Shown here: piece after piece, positions 39,311-52,944 of the stretch
Position numbering within the stretch: the first letter of the stretch is position 1
How the letters are laid out: every line of letters begins with the position of its first letter
Assembly (NCBI RefSeq): GCF_003325455.1
Contig: NZ_CP025198.1
Location: forward strand, 1,674,001 to 1,738,000
Direction of reading: 5' to 3'
Origin: Acidipropionibacterium virtanenii
Lineage (GTDB): Bacteria > Actinomycetota > Actinomycetes > Propionibacteriales > Propionibacteriaceae
DNA: 64,000 nt
The notes under the pieces: model-generated
Database searches by the model: none
The model's input: only the letters and a program-made list of their open reading frames with translations
What the model was told of the DNA's origin: nothing
Program-made: the position numbers and the translations under genes

Positions 39311-40447
39311 ATGAGAGATGGCGGCACGGACCCGGAGCGCCTCTACCTGGACCACGCGGCCACCGGACCACTGCGTCCGGTGGCCGCGTCGGCGATGGTC
39401 TCGACAGGAGCGGTGGGCAATCCCGCGGCGGTCCACACCGCGGGACGCCGGGCCAGGGCGATGCTCGACGACGCCCGCGAGCAGATCGCCACGCTGCTGG
39501 GCGTGCGCCCCCTGGAGCTGGTGTTCACGTCAGGGGGCACCGAGGCCGACAATCTGGCCGTGCTCGGCGCGGCCGGAGCCGGTGCGGATCCGGTGGAGAT
39601 CTCGGCGGTGGAGCACGCGGCGATCTCGGGGCTGGCCGCCCCGGGGCTGCTCGGTGATCGCGTCCGGGTGCTGCCGGTCGATGCCGAGGGGTGCGTGGAC
39701 CCCGCGACGATCGGTACCCGAGGGCCGGCGAGCGTGGTGAGCGTGATGGCCGTCAACAATGAGACGGGGACGGTGCAGCCGGTGGCGCAGTGCGCCGAGG
39801 TCTCCCACCGGGCCGGCGCCCTCTTCCACACCGACGCCGTCCAGGCCCTGGGTCATCTTCCGTTCGACCTGGCCGCCTGGGACGTGGACCTGGCATCCTT
39901 CTCGGCCCACAAGATCGGCGGGCCGGTGGGCATCGGCGCGCTGTGGCGGCGGCGCGGGGTCGACGTCGCGGCCGTCGGGGCCGGCGGGGGCCAGGAGGCC
40001 GGCGTCCGGTCGGGCACCCAGATGGTGGCCCTGGCCCGGGGCTTCGCGGCCGCCCTGGCCGAGTCGCTGGCAGAGCTGGACGAGGCGCGGCGCCGATGGG
40101 AACGGCTGCGCGACCGGTTGGCGTCCGCCGCGGTCGCGATCGACGGAGTGGCCGTCGACGGCGGCCGGGACGTCAGCCCCTCGATCGTTCACCTCAGCGT
40201 AGAAGGGGCCCGAGGCGACGATCTGCAACTACTGCTCGATCAGGACGGCGTCGACTGCTCCACCGGATCTGCCTGCCACGCAGGCGTCTCGGCGCCCAGC
40301 CAGGTGATGCTGGCGATGGGACGCACGCCCGAGCAGGCCTCCTCCTGTCTGAGGTTCTCCTTCGGGCCGGCGACCACCACCGCCGAGATCGAGCGGGTGG
40401 CTGCTCTGCTGCCCGAGGTGGTGGCGCGGGCCCGCCGGGCCCGCTGA
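39311..40447 (+). CDS. Cysteine desulfurase (NifS/IscS family)
   Basis: The 378-residue PLP enzyme removes sulfur from cysteine as an enzyme persulfide. [13 protein letters not shown] starts the fold, [13 protein letters not shown] binds PLP phosphate, [13 protein letters not shown] holds the cofactor Asp, [12 protein letters not shown] the PLP Lys, and [15 protein letters not shown] the active Cys loop. It is followed 68 bases later by mnmA, so its sulfur most likely serves tRNA 2-thiolation. The intervening stretch has a TACGAT box and a GAAGGAGG site for mnmA, so mnmA may also be transcribed separately. Confidence 0.93.
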
Positions 40448-40515: not shown

Positions 40516-41640
40516 ATGAGGGTTCTGGCAGCGATGTCGGGAGGAGTCGACTCGGCGGTGGCCGCAGCCCGCCTGGTGGCCGCCGGGCATGACGTGACCG
40601 GTGTGCACCTGGCCCTGTCGCGGACCCCACTGGCCTACCGGGAGGGCTCGCGCGGCTGCTGTTCGCTGGAGGACTCCTTCGACGCCCGCCGGGCCGCCGA
40701 CAGGATCGGCATCCCCTTCTACGTCTGGGACTTCTCGCAGCGCTTCGCGGCCGAGGTGATCCACCCCTTCGTCGACGAGTACCGGGCCGGACGCACCCCC
40801 AACCCGTGCCTGCGCTGCAACGAGCGGATCAAGTTCGCCGCTGTGCTGGAGCGCGGCCTGGATCTCGGCTACGACGCCGTGGCCACCGGCCACTACGCCC
40901 GCCTGGAGCGAACCGATGGCGTCACCCGGATGCGCCGGGCCGTCGATCCGGGCAAGGACCAGTCCTATGTGCTCGGGGTGCTCAACCAGGACCAGCTGTC
41001 CCACTGCCTGTTCCCCCTCGGCGACTCCCTCAAGACCGAGGTGCGCGCCGAGGCCGCAGACCTCGGCCTGTCGGTGGCCGACAAGCCCGACTCCTACGAC
41101 ATCTGCTTCATCCCCGACGGCGACACCCCCGGCTGGCTGTCGGACCAGCTGGGGGAGGAGACCGGACAGTTCCGCGACGAGTCCGGAGCCGTGGTGGGAC
41201 ACCACGACGGCTACCACCACTTCACCATCGGCCAGCGCCGCGGCCTGCACCTGGGCACCCCCGCCCCCGACGGGAAGCCCCGCTACGTGCTGGACATCCA
41301 GCCGGTCTCAAACACCGTCGTCGTCGGGCCGTCGGAGGATCTCGAGGTGCACCGCCTGGAGGCCATCCGGCCGGTCTGGTGCTCCGGGACCCCCGATGAC
41401 GCCTGGCGAGGCAAGGCTCAGGTGCGCGCCCACGGCACGCCCGTGGACGCCCGGGTCGAACTCGTCGACGGCGGTGTGCGCATCGACCTGGACGCCGCCC
41501 TGAGCGGTGTGGCCCCCGGCCAGGCCGCCGTCCTCTACGACGACAACCTGGTGGTCGGCTCGGCGACCATCTGCGGCACGGACCGTGCCGGTCTCGATGT
41601 TGCGGCGGCGCTTAGGGGCTCCGAGAAGGGCGCGGCCTGA
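40516..41640 (+). CDS. mnmA: tRNA-specific 2-thiouridylase MnmA
   Basis: The 374-residue enzyme thiolates U34 of Lys, Glu and Gln tRNAs. The PPi loop SGGVDS is at residues 8-13. The catalytic Cys pair lies in [12 protein letters not shown] (first Cys) and ICFIPDGD (second). [14 protein letters not shown] lies in the C-terminal half. ATG 40516 has a strong GAAGGAGG site. The stop overlaps the following MetE-like start by one base (TGATG). Confidence 0.95.
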
Positions 41641-42635
41641 TGCGCGCCACCGGCATCGGATCGCTGCCCGGCGACGACTTCCGCGGGGCGCTGGCGGCGA
41701 TGGGCGAGTGCTTCCCCGAACTGGTTCCGGTACCCGAACTGCCCGCCCGCGGCCCGCAGGCCGGCATCATCGGCCGGGCCGTCGCCACCCTGGTGGAGCT
41801 GCCCGTCGAGCTGGACGCCGCCGGGTGGCGGGTCTCCGACGCCCCCGACCGCGCCGCGCGGTCCTCCCGATCCCTGCTGCGCCACGACCTCGACGACATC
41901 GAGGAGCCCCTGGCCGGGGAGCCCGCCACCCTCAAGATCGGCCTGTGCGGGCCGCTCACCCTGGCCGCGAGCCTGCACCTGAAGCGCGGCGAGGCCGTTC
42001 TGGACGATCCCTCGGCCCGCCGTGACGTCGCCGCCTCCCTGGCCGCCGGGCAGGGGGAGCTGGCCGCCGAACTGCACCACCGGATGCCCGCCGTCACCTG
42101 GGTGTGGCAGATCGACGAACCCGCCGCACCGGCCGTCCTGGGCGGGACCATCCCCACCCAGTCGGGCCTGCACCGCTACCCGGCCCTCGACGTCCACATC
42201 GCGGGGCGGGACGCCGCAATCCTGGTGGCCGGGCTGCGTGAAGCCGGGGTCGGCGAGATCGCCTGGCACTGCTGCGCGCCCGGTATTCCCTGGACGATGA
42301 TGGCCGACGCCGGCGTCGACGACGCGATGATCGACGTCGCGACTCTGCGGACCGCCGATCTCGACCGGTGCGCCGAATGGTTGGAGGCCGGAAGGGGTCT
42401 GGGGCTCGGCCTGGCACCCACCGGCACCCGCAACGCTGTCTCCAGCGCCGACGAGATGCTCGACCGGCTGCTGGGCCTGGTCCGGACCCTGGGCGTCGAC
42501 CCGGCCCTGGTCGCCGACCAGGGCATCCTCACACCGGCCTGCGGGCTGGCCGGATGGTCGCAGTCGGCAGCCTCCCGCCAGTGCTCCCAGGTGGCCCGGG
42601 CCGCCGAACTGGCCGACGAGCAGCTGTCCGACTGA
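41640..42635 (+). CDS. MetE C-terminal-domain-like protein (actinobacterial)
   Basis: The 331-residue protein corresponds to the catalytic barrel of cobalamin-independent methionine synthase, without the N-terminal folate-binding half. ATGIGSLPG begins the barrel; VWQIDEPAAPAVL keeps the homocysteine Asp; IAWHCCAPG gives the HxC zinc pair; LTPACGLAGWS gives the last Cys. At the position of the zinc-binding Glu (ITIETSRS in E. coli) it reads IDVATLR, so one ligand appears lost. It is coupled to mnmA, an order conserved in Streptomyces and mycobacteria (Rv3015c-like). It may not make methionine; a sulfur or methyl-transfer role is open. Confidence 0.75.
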   Translation: MRATGIGSLPGDDFRGALAAMGECFPELVPVPELPARGPQAGIIGRAVATLVELPVELDAAGWRVSDAPDRAARSSRSLLRHDLDDIEEPLAGEPATLKIGLCGPLTLAASLHLKRGEAVLDDPSARRDVAASLAAGQGELAAELHHRMPAVTWVWQIDEPAAPAVLGGTIPTQSGLHRYPALDVHIAGRDAAILVAGLREAGVGEIAWHCCAPGIPWTMMADAGVDDAMIDVATLRTADLDRCAEWLEAGRGLGLGLAPTGTRNAVSSADEMLDRLLGLVRTLGVDPALVADQGILTPACGLAGWSQSAASRQCSQVARAAELADEQLSD

Positions 42636-42915: not shown

Positions 42916-43728
42916 TCAGGCTCCGGGGCTGACGTAGCGGCGGGACATGCGGGTGAACAGGGCCAGGGCGGCGGGGAAGAGGATCCAGCCCCCGGCCGGG
43001 GAGGCCCAGACGAGCCATCCGGGCAGGGGGACGGCGGCGTTCATGAGGGCGGCGGCGGGCAGGTAGGCGATCAGTCCGAGGGGGAAGATGAAGCACAGGC
43101 CGATCAGGCCCGCCGGCCCGAAGATCGACAGCGGGTAGATGCCGAAGGTGGTGACGACGGTGTCGGCCAGGGTCTGCAGGGAGTTGACGACGGTGGCGCG
43201 GAAGGCCAGGGAGGCGATGGCGATCTGGATGGATGTCTCGACCAGTCCTCCGCCGAGGATCGCGGCGAGCAGGTAGAGCAGTCGCCACCAGGTCCAGTCC
43301 ACGGGGGCCTGTGGGGCGAAGGCGATCACCGCGGCCAGGCCGAGGAGGGCGTCGCCGAGGGTGAGGATGTTGAAGCGGCGGGTGATGATCTGGGTGAACT
43401 GGTTGACGGGCTTGAGCAGCAGCAGGTCGAACTCGCCGTCGTGGACCAGCTGGGAGGTGTTGAGCAGGCTGCCGAAGGGCATCACGTAGACGGCGTGGGC
43501 GGCCAGCCGGATGCCGACCATCAGTCCGATCCGGTCGATTCCCCAGCCGTCGATGACCCCGAAGCCGGCCAGCAGCAGGGCCATGAAGGCGACCTGGATG
43601 CCCTGGTAGGTCAGCCCGCCGAGGAATCCGACGAACAGATTGGAGCGGTACTGCCCCTGGGCGCGCAGGGAGGCCTTCTCGAGGATCCACCAGGCGCGCA
43701 GGGTGCCGGGGAGCGTGGTCTCAGCCAC
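42916..43728 (-). CDS. ABC-2 type exporter permease (second)
   Basis: The 270-residue protein has six predicted membrane segments and sits last in a three-gene exporter operon. Blocks such as LLNTSQLVHDGEFDLLLLKPV match the DUF990/ABC-2 permease group. The start is GTG 43728, overlapping the stop of the first permease gene by eight bases. The partner permease is similar in size, so the transporter is likely a heterodimer of two permeases with the ATPase. The substrate is unknown. Confidence 0.82.
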   Translation of the reverse strand: MAETTLPGTLRAWWILEKASLRAQGQYRSNLFVGFLGGLTYQGIQVAFMALLLAGFGVIDGWGIDRIGLMVGIRLAAHAVYVMPFGSLLNTSQLVHDGEFDLLLLKPVNQFTQIITRRFNILTLGDALLGLAAVIAFAPQAPVDWTWWRLLYLLAAILGGGLVETSIQIAIASLAFRATVVNSLQTLADTVVTTFGIYPLSIFGPAGLIGLCFIFPLGLIAYLPAAALMNAAVPLPGWLVWASPAGGWILFPAALALFTRMSRRYVSPGA

Positions 43729-44533
43729 CGAGGACCACCACCTTGTGCTCGGCGCGGTGCCACACCAGGGCCAGAAGCCCGGCCAGGATGAGGATCCAGG
43801 CGGCCTGGACGCCGATCGCGGCCCATGCGTCGGCACCGGTGGCGGTGCCGAAGTAGATCGACAGGGGGGTGAACATCTGGGCCCGGAAGGGCAGCCAGTC
43901 CAGGATCGTGGCCAGCGGTCCGGGCATGAACCACAGTGGGATGAGGGCGCCGGAGGCCAGCCCGGAGCCGAGCCGGTAGACCATCATGTAGCCGCCGATC
44001 TCCAATGACCAGAAGCTGGCCATCGAGACCAGCAGGTTGAGGATCAGGCTGATGGCGACCCCCAGCAGGGTCGAGAGGATCCACAGTCCGAGTGTGCCCA
44101 CCTGCGGTGGCAGGGCCAGCGCGCCGATCACGACGGCCCAGGCGATGCCGATCGCGGTGATCGGAAGGCGTCCGGCCAGGGTGCCGGCGTTCTGGGCCAG
44201 GACCTGGCCGATCAGCCCCAGCGGCCGGGTCATGTCGATGCCGATCTGGCCGGTGCGCACCCGGGCGTTGAGGCCGGAGAACTGCCAGGGCATCAGGGCG
44301 GTCTGGATGCAGGCGGCCAGCACGGCGTAGGAGACGGCCTGGGTTCGGTCGATGCCGCGCACCGTGGTGGAGTTGCCGTAGACCGTGGTCCACACCACCT
44401 TGAGCAGCCAGACCTGGATCAGGAGCCCGGCGATGCCGCTGGCCAGATCGATGCGGTAGGCCCATGACGTCCTGACCGCCATCCGGGCGCTGCCGAGAAC
44501 AGCGCGGGGGCTCATCGGGTGGTAAGGGCTCAT
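43721..44533 (-). CDS. ABC-2 type exporter permease (first)
   Basis: The 270-residue membrane protein has six predicted helices and the segment RVRTGQIGIDMTRPLGLIGQ, a feature of the permease pairs linked to this ATPase family. It begins four bases inside the ATPase gene (GTGA-type overlap region at 44530-44533) and overlaps the second permease. All three genes form a translationally coupled exporter operon. Confidence 0.82.
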   Translation of the reverse strand: MSPYHPMSPRAVLGSARMAVRTSWAYRIDLASGIAGLLIQVWLLKVVWTTVYGNSTTVRGIDRTQAVSYAVLAACIQTALMPWQFSGLNARVRTGQIGIDMTRPLGLIGQVLAQNAGTLAGRLPITAIGIAWAVVIGALALPPQVGTLGLWILSTLLGVAISLILNLLVSMASFWSLEIGGYMMVYRLGSGLASGALIPLWFMPGPLATILDWLPFRAQMFTPLSIYFGTATGADAWAAIGVQAAWILILAGLLALVWHRAEHKVVVLGG

Positions 44534-45537
44534 CGTGGGGCCTCAGCGTACATGCGGGCGACGACATCGGTGAGGCTGGCCTCGGTGACGGTCAGGTCGG
44601 TGACCGGCCAGCTAGCGGTGACCGCGGCGATGAGATCGGGAGTGCTGATCACCGCCGGGTCGTGGGTCAGGACGGTCTTGCCCTCGGTCACGGTGCTGGT
44701 GGCCCCGTCGACCCGGATGGCGGCGGGATCGGTGCCCGCGGCCGGGGTGACGGTGAGGGTGCGCTGGTGGACGTAGCGGTGCCGCAGCGCCTCGGGGGTG
44801 CCGTCGAACAGGACGGTGCCGGCGTCGATCATGATGATGCGCCGGCACAGGGCCTCGACGTCGTCCATGTCGTGGGTGGTGAGGATGACGGTGGTGCCCA
44901 GGCGGGTGTTGATCTCGGCGATGAATTCGCGGATGCGGCGTTTGGCCACGACATCCAGGCCGACGGTGGGTTCGTCGAGGTAGACGACGTCGGGGGAGTG
45001 CAGCAGGGCGGCGGTGAGATCTCCTCGCATCCGCTGACCCAGGGACAGGAACCGCACCGGGGTGTCGAGGAATCCGGCCATGTCGAGCAGTTCGGTGAAC
45101 ATCGCCAGGCGCTGGTCGTATTCGGGCTGAGTGACGCCGTAGAGGTCGCGGACCAGCTCGAAGGAGTCGCGCAGCGGCAGGTCGTACCACAGCTGGCTGC
45201 GCTGGCCGAAGACCGCGCCGATGCGGGCCGCGTTGGCGCGGCGGTCGCGCCAGGGCACCCGGCCGGCCACCCGGACGGTCCCGGAAGTCGGCACCAGGAT
45301 GCCGGTGAGCATCTTGATGGTGGTGGACTTGCCCGCCCCGTTGGCGCCCAGGTAGCCCACCAACTCCCCGGCGGCGATGTCGAAGGACACGTCGTGGACC
45401 GCGACCGTCGACGTCTTCTCCCTCGAGAACAGCCGCCGCAGCGACCTGAACCGGCCCATCGGCTCCACCGGGCGGGTGAACACCTTCTCCAGGTCTCGAA
45501 CATGGATCAGGGGCTCGGCACCCGACGACGGCATCAC
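44530..45537 (-). CDS. ABC exporter ATP-binding protein
   Basis: The 335-residue ATPase has Walker A GANGAGKSTT, the Q-loop region IGAVFGQRSQLW, a signature LSLGQRMRGDL and Walker B VVYLDEPTVGLD, then a C-terminal regulatory region of about 80 residues. It belongs with ATPases of ABC-2 exporters for lipids, polysaccharides or toxic compounds. GTG 45537 and ATG 45534 are adjacent; a TAGGCT box six bases upstream of GTG 45537 suggests a leaderless start. The operon diverges from the thiamine-precursor importer. Confidence 0.88.
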   Translation of the reverse strand: MMPSSGAEPLIHVRDLEKVFTRPVEPMGRFRSLRRLFSREKTSTVAVHDVSFDIAAGELVGYLGANGAGKSTTIKMLTGILVPTSGTVRVAGRVPWRDRRANAARIGAVFGQRSQLWYDLPLRDSFELVRDLYGVTQPEYDQRLAMFTELLDMAGFLDTPVRFLSLGQRMRGDLTAALLHSPDVVYLDEPTVGLDVVAKRRIREFIAEINTRLGTTVILTTHDMDDVEALCRRIIMIDAGTVLFDGTPEALRHRYVHQRTLTVTPAAGTDPAAIRVDGATSTVTEGKTVLTHDPAVISTPDLIAAVTASWPVTDLTVTEASLTDVVARMYAEAPR

Positions 45538-45635: not shown

Positions 45636-45646
45636 CCCTGCTGAAG

Positions 45647-45718
45647 ACACGGGGTGCCCCGCACGGGGCTGAGATGAGACCCGTCGAACCTGAACTCATT
45701 CGTATGAGCGGAGGGATG
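45647..45718 (+). promoter_or_regulatory. TPP riboswitch (THI element)
   Basis: Conserved blocks appear in order: GGGGTGCC, GGCTGAGATGAGACCCGT, GAACCTGA, a short P4/P5-like helix (ACTCATTCGTATGAGC), and GGAGGGATG closing P1. This matches the thiamine pyrophosphate riboswitch. The GGAGGG also serves as a ribosome site five bases before ATG 45721, so ligand binding should hide it and lower translation. The genes downstream encode a thiamine-precursor importer, as expected. Confidence 0.93.
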
Positions 45719-45720
45719 TC

Positions 45721-45744
45721 ATGATGCGCCGGCGCGCCCGATGA
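45721..45744 (+). CDS. Possible 7-residue leader peptide linking riboswitch to thiZ
   Basis: The only start codon correctly spaced from the riboswitch GGAGGG is ATG 45721 (or 45724). It encodes MMRRRAR, and its TGA overlaps the thiZ ATG (ATGA). thiZ itself has no ribosome site. The frame may pass riboswitch control to thiZ by translational coupling. Confidence 0.4.
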   Translation: MMRRRAR

Positions 45745-46520
45745 ACCCAGAATCCCCGGCGATCTCGATCCGCGACGCCGGCTACCGCTACCGGCGCTCG
45801 ACGGCACCGGTCCTCGAGCACGTGACGCTGGACGTGCCCGCTTTCGAGCATCTCGCCCTCATCGGGCGCTCCGGGTGCGGCAAGTCGACCCTGCTGAGAC
45901 TCATCGGCGGCCTCGCCTGCCCGCAGACCGGCACGGTCCAGGTGCTCGGCGCCACTGATGAGGCAGGGCGCCTGGCGGCCTGCGCCCTGATGCCCCAGAA
46001 CGACCTCCTGCTGCCCTGGTTCGACCTGGCCGGCAATGTCGCCATCGGCCTGCGCAACCAGGGGGTGCCGCGCCGGCGGGCGCGCTCCCGGGCGCTGGGC
46101 GCACTGTCCCAGCTCGGCCTGTCCGAGTGGGCCGGCGCGCGGCCGGACGCCCTGTCGGGAGGGATGCGCCAGCGCGCCTCCCTGGCCCGGGCACTGCTGG
46201 CCGGCAAGCCGGTGCTGCTGGCCGACGAGCCGCTGGGCGCCCTGGACGCCATCACCCGCGCCGAGGGACAGAAATGGCTGCGCGACGCCGTCACCGGTGC
46301 CAGTACGACCCTTGTGATGGTCACCCACGACGTCGAGGAGGCCCTGCTGCTGTCGCGGCGGGTGGTGCTGCTGGCCGGGCGGCCGGGCTGCTGCACCGGG
46401 TCGTGGCCCGGCTGGTTCGACGACGACCGCCCTCACGAGGAGATCCTGGCCGACCCGGAGTTCGGCGCATCGCGCACGGCGATCCTCGGGGCGCTGGGCC
46501 GGGTCAGGCAGGCGGCATGA
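45741..46520 (+). CDS. thiZ: Thiamine-precursor ABC importer, ATP-binding subunit
   Basis: The 259-residue ATPase has Walker A GRSGCGKST, Q-loop MPQNDLLLPW, signature LSGGMRQRASLARAL and Walker B VLLADEPLGALD, typical of the NitT/TauT/SsuB importer family. Its place behind a TPP riboswitch and before permease and NMT1-like binding protein genes points to uptake of a thiamine pyrimidine precursor (HMP or formylaminopyrimidine). It overlaps thiX by ATGA. Confidence 0.87.
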   Translation: MNPESPAISIRDAGYRYRRSTAPVLEHVTLDVPAFEHLALIGRSGCGKSTLLRLIGGLACPQTGTVQVLGATDEAGRLAACALMPQNDLLLPWFDLAGNVAIGLRNQGVPRRRARSRALGALSQLGLSEWAGARPDALSGGMRQRASLARALLAGKPVLLADEPLGALDAITRAEGQKWLRDAVTGASTTLVMVTHDVEEALLLSRRVVLLAGRPGCCTGSWPGWFDDDRPHEEILADPEFGASRTAILGALGRVRQAA

Positions 46521-47284
46521 GCAGGGTCGCGGCCCGCGTCCTGCCTCCGGCAGCGACCGTGGCGCTGCTGCTGGCCGGCTGGATCGCCGTGACCGCCGGT
46601 GGTGCCGTCCCGGCCTATGTGATCCCCTCGCCGCAGGCGGTGGTGACGGCCCTGGTGGACAACTGGGGAGACGTCCTGGCCTCGGCGACCTGGCTCACCG
46701 GGGCCGAGACTCTGGCAGGCATCGGCCTGGGAACTGCGGTGGCGGTGGGGATGGCCGTCGCCTCGGGATACCTCGCCGTCATCGGACGGGCGCTCACCCC
46801 ACTGCTGATCGCCTCCCAGGCGATCCCGACCGTCGTCATCGGACCGCTGCTCACCATCGCCCTGGGGTACGGGATGTCACCGAAGGTGATCGTCGTCGCC
46901 CTGCTGTGCTTCTTCCCGGTGGCACTGAACCTGATGGCAGGGATCCACGACGTCGACCATCGCCTGATCGACACCATGCGGACCCTCCACGCCGGGCGTT
47001 CGGCGCTGCTGTGGCGGGTGCGGATCCCCGCGGCCGCACCCCGCGGATTCGCCGGCCTGAGGGTCGCGGTGACATTCGCCCCGGTGGCCGCGGTCTTCGC
47101 CGAGTACACCGGATCCACCAACGGCATCGGCTATCTCATGCTCCAGGCCATCCCGCGCCTGGCCACCGACCTCGTCTTCGCCCAGGTGATCGTCCTCACC
47201 GCCATGTCCGGCCTGCTGCTGGGCGCCGTGACCCTGATCGAGCGACTCGCCTGCCCCTGGAATGTCACGGAAGGACACTCATGA
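46517..47284 (+). CDS. thiX: Thiamine-precursor ABC importer, permease subunit
   Basis: The 255-residue protein has six predicted membrane helices of the BPD_transp_1 type with the EAA-like loop DTMRTLHAGRSALLWRVRIPAAAP, which contacts the ATPase. VIPSPQAVVTAL near the N-terminus is usual for SsuC-like permeases. It starts and ends in four-base ATGA overlaps with thiZ and thiY. Confidence 0.88.
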   Translation: MSRVAARVLPPAATVALLLAGWIAVTAGGAVPAYVIPSPQAVVTALVDNWGDVLASATWLTGAETLAGIGLGTAVAVGMAVASGYLAVIGRALTPLLIASQAIPTVVIGPLLTIALGYGMSPKVIVVALLCFFPVALNLMAGIHDVDHRLIDTMRTLHAGRSALLWRVRIPAAAPRGFAGLRVAVTFAPVAAVFAEYTGSTNGIGYLMLQAIPRLATDLVFAQVIVLTAMSGLLLGAVTLIERLACPWNVTEGHS

Positions 47285-48300
47285 CCCGCTCCCCTCAGCA
47301 CACAGCCATCAGCCGACGTCGGCTCGGCCTGGCCGCGGTCGGCGCCGCCCTGGCCCTGGCGGGCTGCGGCCGGAAGGCCGACGCGCGGACCAGCACCCGG
47401 AGTCGCGCGGTGAACCTCCTGCTGGACTGGAATCCGAATCCCGACCACGTCACCATCTACACCGCCCAGCACACCGGCGCTTTCAGCAAGGCCGGGGTCG
47501 ACGTCGCGATCCACAATCCGGCCAACACCGCCGACGCCGCGAAGCAGGTCTCCCTGGGCCGGGCCGACCTCGCGGTCTCCTACGAGCCCGACACCCTCAT
47601 CGCTGTCGCGCAGGGCCTGCGGGTGGTCTCGGTGGCGGCCCTGATCCCCACCTGCCTCACCTCGCTCATCGCCCGGAAGGACTCCGGCATCACCAGTGCT
47701 GCAGATCTGGCGGGGAAGACGGTGGCCCTCTCCGGTCTCGCCTCTCAGAAGCCGAGTGTCGAGTACATCGCCCGCAAGGCCCACGTCGACCCTGCCACGA
47801 TCACCATGCCGAATGTTCAGCAGAGCCTTGATCAGGCGCTGCTCACCGGCAAGGCCCACGCCGTATACGGCGCATTCCGCAACATCGAGGGAATCGAACT
47901 GGCCGGGAAGATCCCTGTGACCGTGCTTCCCGCCACCGAGCTGGGGCTGCCCGGCTACTCCGAACTGGTGATCATCGCGAACCCGGAGCGGCTGACCTCC
48001 GACGCCGGCTACGCGGGCCGGGTGAAGGCCTTCCTCAAGGGGCTGGCCGCCGGTCAGGCCATCGCACTGGCCCACCCGGACGAGGCGGTGACCGCGATGC
48101 AGGTGCCGGCCAAGGGGTCCTATGACCGGGCGACCCTCGCCCGGATGGTCAAGGCCACGGTCTCCCTTCTGGGCGCGGAATTCGGGGTGCAGAAGGGATC
48201 GGACTGGGCTTCTTACGCCACCTGGATGCACCGCAACGGACTGCTCGACACTGCGGTCGACGGGGCGAAGGCCACCACCAACGAGTGGCTGGTCAAATGA
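47281..48300 (+). CDS. thiY: Thiamine-precursor ABC importer, substrate-binding lipoprotein
   Basis: The 339-residue protein has a twin-Arg-like start (SRRRLGLAAVG), a lipobox ALAGC and an NMT1/THI5-like domain. LLLDWNPNPDHVTIYTAQ matches the pyrimidine-binding motif of ThiY proteins. It should capture HMP or a related pyrimidine outside the membrane. The 3' end overlaps the converging DedA-like gene by eight bases. Confidence 0.88.
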   Translation: MTRSPQHTAISRRRLGLAAVGAALALAGCGRKADARTSTRSRAVNLLLDWNPNPDHVTIYTAQHTGAFSKAGVDVAIHNPANTADAAKQVSLGRADLAVSYEPDTLIAVAQGLRVVSVAALIPTCLTSLIARKDSGITSAADLAGKTVALSGLASQKPSVEYIARKAHVDPATITMPNVQQSLDQALLTGKAHAVYGAFRNIEGIELAGKIPVTVLPATELGLPGYSELVIIANPERLTSDAGYAGRVKAFLKGLAAGQAIALAHPDEAVTAMQVPAKGSYDRATLARMVKATVSLLGAEFGVQKGSDWASYATWMHRNGLLDTAVDGAKATTNEWLVK

Positions 48301-49627: not shown

Positions 49628-49907
49628 CGTCGCCCGTCTGGCCGGCCTGGCGCGCATCGAGCTCACCGAGGAGGAGACGGCGAGGCTGGCACTCCAGCTC
49701 GACGGCATCCTCGACGCGGTGGCCAGCGTGTCCAGGGTGGCCGGCGACGATGTGCCGCCCACCTCGCACGCCGTGCCCCTGATCAATGTCTTCCGGGCCG
49801 ATGAGGTGAGGCCCTCGATGCCCACCGAGGAGGCACTGGCGATGGCGCCGCGGGCCGAGCAGAACCGGTTCAGGGTGCCTCGCATTCTCGATGAGGAGGC
49901 CATGTGA
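49608..49907 (+). CDS. gatC: Asp-tRNA(Asn)/Glu-tRNA(Gln) amidotransferase subunit C
   Basis: The 99-residue subunit begins [21 protein letters not shown] and contains [22 protein letters not shown], the two conserved GatC blocks. It wraps around GatA and GatB. GTG 49608 follows AGGAGGA; the upstream in-frame ATG 49566 has no ribosome site. The stop lies in GTGATG with the gatA start. Confidence 0.93.
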
Positions 49908-51439
49908 TGGCGGACCTGTCCACCACAGAGAGCCTGCTGCGAGCCGACGCCACCGAGCTGGTCGCCGCGATGGAGTCCGGCGACCTGTCGTCCGAGCAGA
50001 TCACTGCGGCCTGCCTGGACCGGATCGACGCCGTCGACGACCGGGTCAACGCCTTCATCACTGTCGACCGCGACCGGGCCCTGGCCCAGGCCCGCGGCAT
50101 CGACGCCCGCCGGGCGGCCGGCGAGAGGCTCGGCCCGCTGGCCGGGGCGCCGCTGGCCGTCAAGGACATGTTCTGCTACAAGGGCATGCGCACCACAGCG
50201 GCCTCGAGAATGCTGGAGCACTGGATCTCCCCGTACACCTCGACGGTGGTGCAGCGCTGCATCGACGCCGGAATGGTGATCCTCGGCAAGACCAACCTCG
50301 ACGAATTCGCGATGGGATCCTCCACCGAGACCTCGGCCTTCGGTGCGACCCGCAACCCGTGGGCCACCGACCGGATCCCGGGCGGTTCGGGAGGCGGCTC
50401 GGCCGCGGCCCTGGCGGCCTTCGAGGCCCCACTGGGTCTGGGCACCGACACCGGCGGCTCGATCCGGATGCCGGCGGCGGTCACCGGAACCGTCGGCGTC
50501 AAGCCGACCTACGGCGGGACGTCGCGCTACGGCGTCATCGCCATGGCCTCGTCCCTGGACCAGCCCGGCCCGTGCGGGCGCAGCGTCCTGGACACCGCGC
50601 TGCTGCACCAGGTGATCGCCGGCCACGACCCGATGGACCAGACCTCGGTGCCTGCCGATGTGCCCCCGGTCGTCGAGGCCGCCCGGCGCGGCGATGTGGC
50701 GGGGCTGCGGATCGGTGTCGTGAAGGAGCTGTCCGGGCCCGGCTACTCGGCCGGAGTCCTCGAGCGCTTCAACGAGGCGGTCGCGGCGCTGACCGCCGTC
50801 GGCGCCGAGGTGGTGGAGGTCTCCTGCCCGTCATTCGAGCATGCGCTGGCCGCCTACTACCTCATCCAGCCCTCCGAGGTGTCCAGCAACCTGGCCCGCT
50901 ACGACGCCATGCGCTACGGGCTGCGGGTCGACGACGACGGTCATCATTCGGCCGAGCAGGTGATGACTGCGAGCCGGGGGGCCGGATTCGGCGCCGAGGC
51001 GAAGCGGCGCATCATCATCGGCACCTACGCGCTGTCCAGCGGCTACTACGACGCCTACTACGGCTCGGCGCAGAAGGTCCGCACCCTCATCTCGCGCGAT
51101 CTCGGCGAGGCGTGGAAGACCTGCGACGTGCTCGTGTCTCCCACCACACCGACCACCGCGTTCCGGATCGGCGAGCGGGCCGATGATCCGCTGTCCATGT
51201 ACGCCGCCGACCTGTGCACGATCCCCGCCAATATGGGGGGCATCGCGTCGGGATCCTTCCCGGCCGGGCTGTCGGACGGCCTGCCGGTCGGCTTCCAGGT
51301 GATGGCACCGGTGATGCGCGACGACCGCGTCTACCAGGTGGGTGCGGCGTTGGAGCGCGAACTGGAGAAGGACTGGGGAGCCCCGCTGCTGGCGCGGATC
51401 CCGGCCCTGGACGAGTCTGAGAAGGAGGGTGCGCGATGA
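49907..51439 (+). CDS. gatA: Asp-tRNA(Asn)/Glu-tRNA(Gln) amidotransferase subunit A
   Basis: The 510-residue amidase-signature enzyme releases ammonia from glutamine for GatB. The catalytic Lys lies in PLAVKDMFC, the cis-Ser in [11 protein letters not shown] and the Ser nucleophile in [14 protein letters not shown] 49907 shares a base with the gatC stop; GTG 49904 is possible. It ends in an ATGA overlap with gatB. Confidence 0.96.
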
Positions 51440-52944
51440 GCGTGTGGACCACTGACGACCTCCTCGGCTACGACGAGGCCATGGAGCGCTTCGACCCGGT
51501 GCTGGGACTGGAGGTGCACGTCGAGCTGTCGACCGCCTCGAAGATGTTCTGCGGCTGCCCGGCCGATTCCGACGGTGCCGAACCCAACACGCATGTCTGC
51601 CCGGTGTGCCTGGGGCTGCCCGGCTCGATGCCGGCGATCAACGGACACGCGGTGGAATCAGCGATCCGGATCGGCCTGGCCCTCAACTGCCGGATCGCGC
51701 CCTGGTGCCGAATGGCCCGGAAGAACTACTTCTACCCGGACATGACCAAGGACTACCAGACCTCCCAGTACGACGAGCCGATCTGCCACGACGGCCACGT
51801 CGACCTGGAGGTCGACGGGAAGACCTACCGGGTAGAGATCGAGCGGGCCCATATGGAGGAGGACGCCGGCAAGTCGCTGCATGTCGGCGGTTCGGACGGA
51901 CGCATCCAGGGCGCCGCGTACTCCCTGATGGACTACAACCGGGCCGGCGTGCCGCTCATCGAGATCGTCACCAAGCCGGTGCGCGGCCTGGGGGCCGCCG
52001 CACCGCAGGTGGCGCGGGCCTACATGGCCCATCTGCGCGACATCATGATCGCCCTGGGGGTGTCGCACGCCCGGATGGAGAGGGGCAACCTGCGCTGTGA
52101 CGCCAACGTGTCGCTGATGCCGAAGGGCGCCACGAAGCTGGGCACCCGCACCGAGACCAAGAACGTCAACTCGCTGCGCTCGGTGGAGGGGGCACTCACC
52201 TACGAGATCCGGCGCCAGGCCGCGGTGCTGGCCTCGGGGCGGGCGGTGCGCCAGCAGACCCGGATGTGGCAGGAGGACGGCGAGTACACCATCGCCGGGC
52301 GCGACAAGTCCGACGCCGAGGACTACCGCTACTTCCCCGAGCCCGATCTGGTGCCGATCGAGGCGTCGGCCGAGTGGGTGGAGGAGCTGCGCGCCACCCT
52401 GCCGGAGCTGCCGGCGGCCAAGCGGGCCCGGCTGAGTGCCGAGTGGTCCTTCTCGCAGCTGGAGATGGACGCCGTGGTGAACGCCGGTGCGCTGGACCTC
52501 ATCGAGGAGACCGTGAGGGCCGGTGCTGGTGCGGCGTCGGCGCGCAAGTGGTGGCTCACTGAGCTGTCGCGGCGGGCCAACGAGGCCGGCTGCGAACTGG
52601 CAGAGGTCGGCATGAGCCCGGTCCAGGTGGCCGCGGTGCAGAAGATGGTCGACGCCGGGACGCTCACTGACAAGCTGGCGCGCAGTGTCATCGACGGGGT
52701 GATCGCCGGGGAGGGCGAGCCCGACCAGGTGGTTGCAGCGCGCGGCCTGGCGGTCGTCTCCGACGATGGCGCCCTCGGGCAGGCTGTCGATGACGCCATC
52801 GCCGCCAATCCCGGTGTGGCCGAGAAGATCCGCGGCGGGAAGGTGCAGGCCGCCGGAGCCCTCATCGGGCAGGTGATGAAGGCGATGCGCGGCCAGGCCG
52901 ACGCCAAGAGGGTTCGCGAGATCATCCTGGACAAGCTGTCCTGA
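51436..52944 (+). CDS. gatB: Asp-tRNA(Asn)/Glu-tRNA(Gln) amidotransferase subunit B
   Basis: The 502-residue subunit activates and amidates mischarged Asp- or Glu-t[36 protein letters not shown] and [17 protein letters not shown] are the GatB catalytic blocks; the YqeY-like tail domain ends the protein. ATG 51436 overlaps gatA by four bases. All three subunits are present, so the transamidase is complete. Confidence 0.96.

Follow-up and report, generated by a model that had tools for sequence, protein, structure and literature searches.

A core-MetE-like protein encoded behind mnmA in Acidipropionibacterium virtanenii carries a complete predicted zinc site

A gene that overlaps mnmA in Acidipropionibacterium virtanenii encodes a 331-residue protein, predicted to fold as a single TIM barrel, that resembles the catalytic half of the methionine synthase MetE. 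Its conserved residues strongly suggest that the zinc ligand set is complete, comprising H210, C212, D232 and C301. With moderate confidence we propose that the protein functions as a core-MetE-type methyltransferase that depends on zinc, acts on homocysteine or a near analogue, serves in an auxiliary capacity and is encoded in an old, co-transcribed block. The gene, here called metL, lies at 41640..42635 on the forward strand of the 64,000-nucleotide stretch of contig NZ_CP025198.1 that was analysed as a whole (hereafter the window).

The mnmA gene (40516..41640, forward strand, ATG start) encodes a tRNA 2-thiouridine(34) synthase and matches NF001138 with 411 bits against a cut-off of 284. 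Its stop codon and the metL start codon form the junction TGATG, a 1-nt overlap. Further upstream lies a gene for a cysteine desulfurase of the NifS/IscS type (39311..40447, forward strand). Its best model, TIGR03402, scores 304 bits, and the subtype of this predicted enzyme is left unfixed because the score falls below that model's cut-off. At the far end of the block, still in the window, are genes for a gatA-type amidase (49904..51439, forward strand; PF01425) and for gatB (51436..52944, forward strand; PF02934 and PF02637). The slot downstream of metL, where most relatives have ligA, is occupied by ABC-2 type exporter genes (43721-45537, reverse strand). The ligA gene of this genome is found at C1:1312365-1314455, away from metL, and gatA and gatB are still near metL; three sister-genus genomes likewise have ligA and metL apart. 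The interval separating metL from gatA and gatB also contains, at 45640-48300, a TPP riboswitch (RF00059, 61.5 bits, 45640-45733) followed directly by an ABC transporter whose binding protein is of the THI5/NMT1 type; this transporter probably serves the uptake of thiamine or a pyrimidine precursor.

The only Pfam domain of the metL protein is Meth_synt_2 (PF01717; 44.5 bits, cut-off 21), covering residues 103-323, and a search against NCBIfam matched no family. The MetE N-terminal domain (PF08267, Meth_synt_1) had no match in the own genome, which agrees with the sequence-only reading that the N-terminal half is absent. No full MetE was matched there either, an absence that is not absolute, as the PF01717 search of the same genome missed metL itself. 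A full MetH is present (1350 bits). The genome also encodes a second PF01717 protein of 392 residues (C1:44374-45552), far from the mnmA locus, with HxC, FEA and DCG motifs of its own; we take it to resemble the proteins named "methionine synthase II family".

The AlphaFold model of the metL protein has a mean pLDDT of 97.1. Its best match by VIA-align was 3rpd, a protein of the MesD type, with a Z score of 25.0 and an RMSD of 2.9 over 275 aligned residues. The C-terminal halves of MetE followed (Z 20.9-23.7), with three MetE chains aligned through their N-terminal half (Z 21.5-21.7), and then UROD and a Methanosarcina mazei methyltransferase (Z 16.5-19.1). Profile E-values against solved MetE chains were modest (8e-10 at best), and a single-sequence phmmer search of the PDB, which contains 3rpd, returned no chain at E values up to 1.

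The likeness to canonical MetE (E. coli b3829 and the structures from T. maritima, C. albicans and A. thaliana) lies in the C-terminal catalytic barrel, with equivalents of S433, D599, H641, C643 and C726. However, the metL protein has an Asp in place of Glu665, lacks the N-terminal folate-binding half and shares only 13-18% identity across the C-terminal barrel. This sets it apart from canonical MetE and leaves the label of methionine synthase unproven, in line with the earlier caution that such an annotation may mislead. The Shewanella MesD (3rpd) is likewise a core enzyme without the folate half and gives the best structural match, but identity over the structural alignment is 18%, whereas about 72% identity (to ACIAD3523) was used to assign MesD in PMC7857596; a MesX partner is a further mark of that enzyme. 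MesB of Dehalococcoides mccartyi, which we compared through its published description, is also a single barrel with an H-C-D-C set and mostly conserved equivalents of Ser433 and Asp599 (PMC7005905, PMC7857596). There, MesB is tied to CoFeSP/Wood-Ljungdahl genes in an apparent operon with acsC/acsD. In contrast, metL overlaps the upstream mnmA, and its recognised downstream genes are those for ABC transporters and gatA/gatB rather than a CoFeSP operon. With a single barrel matching the MetE C-terminal half, an H-C-[E/D]-C set and equivalents of Ser433 and Asp599, the metL protein shares these features with the core methionine synthases of the MesA-D kind.

A named counterpart would be Rv3015c, which we take to adjoin trmU and ligA. 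It has been described as a predicted protein that matches the MetE C-terminal catalytic domain, is common to other actinomycetes and is of unclear activity (PMC4428469). The passage in question gives no residue, structural or synteny analysis, and we infer that proteins of the Rv3015c type belong to the metL family. Our literature search found nothing that looked like a functional study of Rv3015c and no activity reported for any metL family member, and to our knowledge none is known. The family, of the core-MetE kind, has apparently been noticed in print already without an assigned function.

The assignment of the zinc site draws on an alignment of 57 family members (A1), from which one homologue that lost the zinc site (L029) and one cut by a contig end (L033) were left out. 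MAFFT alignment with E. coli MetE paired H210 with H641, C212 with C643, D232 with E665 and C301 with C726. The His and both Cys ligands had been recognised in the sequence-only reading, which held that the Glu of MetE is replaced in the stretch IDVATLR and that one zinc ligand is therefore missing. This reading is rejected as a five-residue alignment slip: HMMER, MAFFT and hhalign all place Glu665 opposite D232, five residues before the Arg that had been compared. When the family profile was aligned by HMMER with the solved MetE chains of C. albicans, A. thaliana and S. mutans, the strand end "avsvD" fell opposite "VVSIE", "VITIE" and "VISIE". The printed hhalign alignment with E. coli MetE likewise sets Glu665 opposite D232 and agrees on the pairing of the His and the first Cys. 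Moreover, the β-strand 228-232 of the AlphaFold model terminates at D232. IDVATLR seems to have been matched by eye to an IDVITIET-like MetE strand. On the DNA, the HxC motif (H210-C211-C212) corresponds to 42267..42275 and the Asp232 codon to 42333..42335, both on the forward strand and computed as 41640 + 3 x 209 and 41640 + 3 x 231 respectively.

Conservation points the same way. A conserved acidic residue, at a position shifted from the one first compared, is found in 56 of the 57 rows at column 232 (D 52, E 4, P 1). Column 237, which holds R237 of the window protein, is unconserved, with Arg in 8/57 and a gap in 11/57. In the nearest-scoring genus (rows L034-L040), four of seven members have Glu at column 232. 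The full H-C-[D/E]-C set is present in 55 of the 57 aligned members, or 55 of 58 with L029 added; the exceptions within the 57 are a Granulicoccus protein with Pro at column 232 and one row with Gly at column 301. When 19 divergent rows were added, chosen for a low score or for the absence of metE and metH and thus not a random sample, the H-C-[E/D]-C set was found in 64/76; L140, L145/L157 and L153, which are cut, split or partial, stand outside these 76 rows. Among the divergent rows, L136 has Arg at column 212. The distance from the second residue of the ligand set to the acidic one is 20 in the metL protein, compared with 19 in MesB and 22 in MesA and MetE (positions from PMC7857596). In MesB, whose activity has been measured, Asp is the fourth ligand and was considered to allow both zinc binding and activity (PMC7857596, PMC7005905).

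The residues expected to hold the substrate are likewise conserved. MAFFT pairs S8 with S433 and D159 with D599, both homocysteine-binding residues of E. coli MetE, and both are kept in 57/57 members. E33 is also invariant (57/57), yet it falls in a different MAFFT column from E. coli Glu484. Together with the zinc ligand set, S8 and D159 give good reason to expect an amino-acid thiol as the substrate, probably homocysteine or a close analogue.

On the reading that we favour, a zinc ion held by His210, Cys212, Asp232 and Cys301 would activate the thiol of homocysteine or of a close amino-acid thiol, with the substrate gripped by Ser8 and Asp159 and perhaps by Glu33. A methyl group would then be moved onto or off the substrate sulfur, as judged from what related families do. 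As the folate-binding half is absent, the protein should not use 5-methyl-tetrahydrofolate as MetE does; candidate donors would be a methyl-corrinoid or a small methylated compound. The main methionine synthase of this genome should be MetH, with the metL product in an auxiliary role. The position of metL behind mnmA would reflect co-transcription in an old iscS-mnmA-metL-ligA-gat block and would not in itself prove a role in tRNA thiolation.

The gene is widespread. It was matched in all 77 genomes of the order and in 211 of 246 genomes of the class, the latter count including three weak matches (G230, G460 and G492; E 3e-6 to 5e-5) whose best stretches resemble other MetE-like proteins. The 35 class genomes without a match, an absence that is again not absolute, all belong to three families (f9, f85 and f93), and 38 of the sampled class genomes lack a true metL orthologue. 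A scan of genome contigs yielded one relative only. In a tree of 93 rows, the class members lie on one side of a branch with support 97/72. The tree groups rows mostly, though not strictly, by taxonomic family, and inheritance therefore looks mainly vertical.

We examined 20 loci from the class, each 18 kb long. In 18 of them mnmA is upstream of metL and in the same orientation, with aligned ends 6 to 6564 bp apart; iscS is present in 17/20, ligA lies downstream in 18/20 and a gatA match above 600 bits occurs in 11/20. The link of metL to mnmA and iscS is real and old. The order is looser than the fixed arrangement with mnmA and a cysteine desulfurase that had been supposed: the end of mnmA lies within 150 nt of metL in only 36 of 59 loci, the window copy included, most of which hold 1.5 kb of upstream sequence. 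In the 20 class loci ligA accompanies metL just as often as mnmA does (18/20 each), which favours a conserved stretch of chromosome over a thiolation module.

Outside the class but within the phylum, eight proteins encoded in an iscS-mnmA...ligA block (L063, L065, L068 and L072-L076) and twelve CoFeSP-type proteins form two groups that join each other in the 93-row tree (100/96). The eight keep the H, C and C of the other three ligand columns and have Pro (six), Thr (one) or Ala (one) at the acidic column. A three-ligand form therefore exists, but elsewhere than in the window, and its agreement with the missing ligand supposed earlier is a coincidence. At seven of these eight block loci ligA was measured, L074 giving no match at the cut-off. 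In 7/8, as judged by eye, a hydrophobic protein of 290-352 residues is encoded on the opposite strand between mnmA and the metE-like gene; a Pfam scan of the copy at L065 gave no match at 1e-5. The twelve CoFeSP-type proteins have H-C-D-C in 12/12 and Gln in 11/12 where the metL family has E33, and a Pfam scan of one of them (L064) found no match at 1e-5. For seven of the twelve (L062, L064, L066, L067, L070, L071 and L079) the fetched stretch contains acsC, an MTHFR gene and acsE; for the other five it does not. The seven CoFeSP-linked core-MetE-like proteins are probably the MesB kind in this phylum.

An alternative to zinc catalysis is suggested by homologues that have lost the metal site. 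Nine homologues from six families lack both cysteine ligands, and three of them lack all four ligands, although the alignment is uncertain at this divergence. With the partial L153 they form a set of ten (L029, L142 and L146-L153) that shows no internal stop codons. The tree needs three such changes, at least two of them forced by starred branches. The pN/pS ratio of 0.30 in zinc-lost pairs lies inside the 0.12-0.47 range of five zinc-keeping pairs, but the two pairs behind it both have a high dS (1.09 and 2.78). Within 1.5 kb flanks, mnmA or ligA is found at 7/10 of these loci and both at five; L029, L142 and L152 have neither. The genomes concerned are mixed in their MetE/MetH content. A parallel is provided by the MesB-like proteins of Chloroflexales that PMC7857596 describes as zinc-less. 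Because the nine are retained, zinc catalysis cannot be what preserves the gene in them; a second role that needs no metal, or repurposing, is suggested for these lineages. The oddity lies outside the window protein, whose own site appears complete. Extended to the family as a whole, the kept function would be something other than zinc catalysis: the barrel would bind a ligand or a protein, with IscS, MnmA, tRNA or an amino acid as the partner, and its ancestral metal site would have been discarded in some lineages. We consider this fairly unlikely, as 55 of 57 ordinary members keep all four ligands, which would hardly be expected without selection, and the zinc-lost rows may be lineage-specific repurposing. 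A mixed form, in which the barrel keeps its mnmA-ligA slot across the class for a metal-independent reason, seems rather unlikely to us; here the protein would mostly be a zinc enzyme, with the metal site erased in about three lineages that still keep the gene, its constraint and often its position, and would also have a non-catalytic role tied to its neighbours, such as a sulfur relay or the control of tRNA or translation. A direct role in sulfur or methyl transfer to tRNA with MnmA, for instance in modifying wobble 2-thiouridine, was proposed in the sequence-only reading and finds little positive evidence beyond position. In its favour are the 1-nt overlap in the window, the overlaps of 1-10 nt in 25/59 loci and the report that M. 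tuberculosis is without apparent homologues of further s2U-modifying enzymes (PMC10531406), which leaves room for another enzyme. However, mnmA is kept in 16/16 tested genomes without a true metL orthologue (16 of the 38), and dependence of thiolation on metL is rejected on this ground. Moreover, the protein has no Pfam domain other than PF01717 and ligA is an equally constant neighbour. Such a role is most improbable.

The remaining alternatives keep the zinc chemistry and change its purpose. The protein could be an ordinary core methionine synthase that draws on some donor besides methyl-folate and accounts for an appreciable part of cellular methionine, and its residue set, as in MesB (with D) and MetE, is consistent with this. 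Of the 246 class genomes sampled, 87 have a match to the MetE N-domain and 227 a match to MetH (E 1e-60), so that metL is rarely the sole candidate. Fourteen genomes have neither at the thresholds used, and four of these carry metL (G385, G437, G447 and G529); the other ten have no true orthologue. The four are drafts of 60-160 contigs, G447 has separate MetH-domain ORFs and G529 (L136) has lost C212; they are too few and too fragmentary for an argument. Family f4 includes several genomes with MetE as well as an intact metL, so there is no clean exclusion. Because all 35 non-matching genomes fall in f9, f85 and f93, the pattern is confounded by ancestry, and nothing is concluded from it on whether metL replaces MetE or follows MetH. 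M. smegmatis becomes auxotrophic for methionine when metE and, through cobK, cobalamin synthesis are both removed, and silencing of metH halts its growth unless methionine is supplied (PMC8088520); with both MetE and MetH blocked, growth thus depends on added methionine. Actinomycetes in general are reported to have a single-domain MetE homologue (PMC4428469), and from this and the distribution we infer that M. smegmatis carries metL. A real contribution to cellular methionine is accordingly judged distinctly unlikely, and metL is unlikely to encode the main methionine synthase. Alternatively, the substrate could be another small thiol or amino acid, such as cysteine, a thiol cofactor or a sulfonium compound, with transfer in either direction, as in the demethylation of a damage product. 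Neither a methyl donor nor a partner gene could be recognised next to metL, and R37, R46 and D83, which never vary among the 57 rows, could indicate a substrate particular to the family. Against this, the invariant Ser8 and Asp159 align to the MetE residues that contact the amino-acid moiety of homocysteine, and we regard a different thiol as quite improbable.

The proposed auxiliary methyltransferase would give a role to a gene that is present in about six of seven sampled class genomes, still lacks an assigned function and readily attracts the label methionine synthase. A complete zinc site turns what looked like a vague, degenerate MetE into a testable enzyme. Moreover, homologues that naturally lack the zinc site, several of which occupy the same slot in the genome, provide material with which catalysis may be separated from any other role of this protein family.
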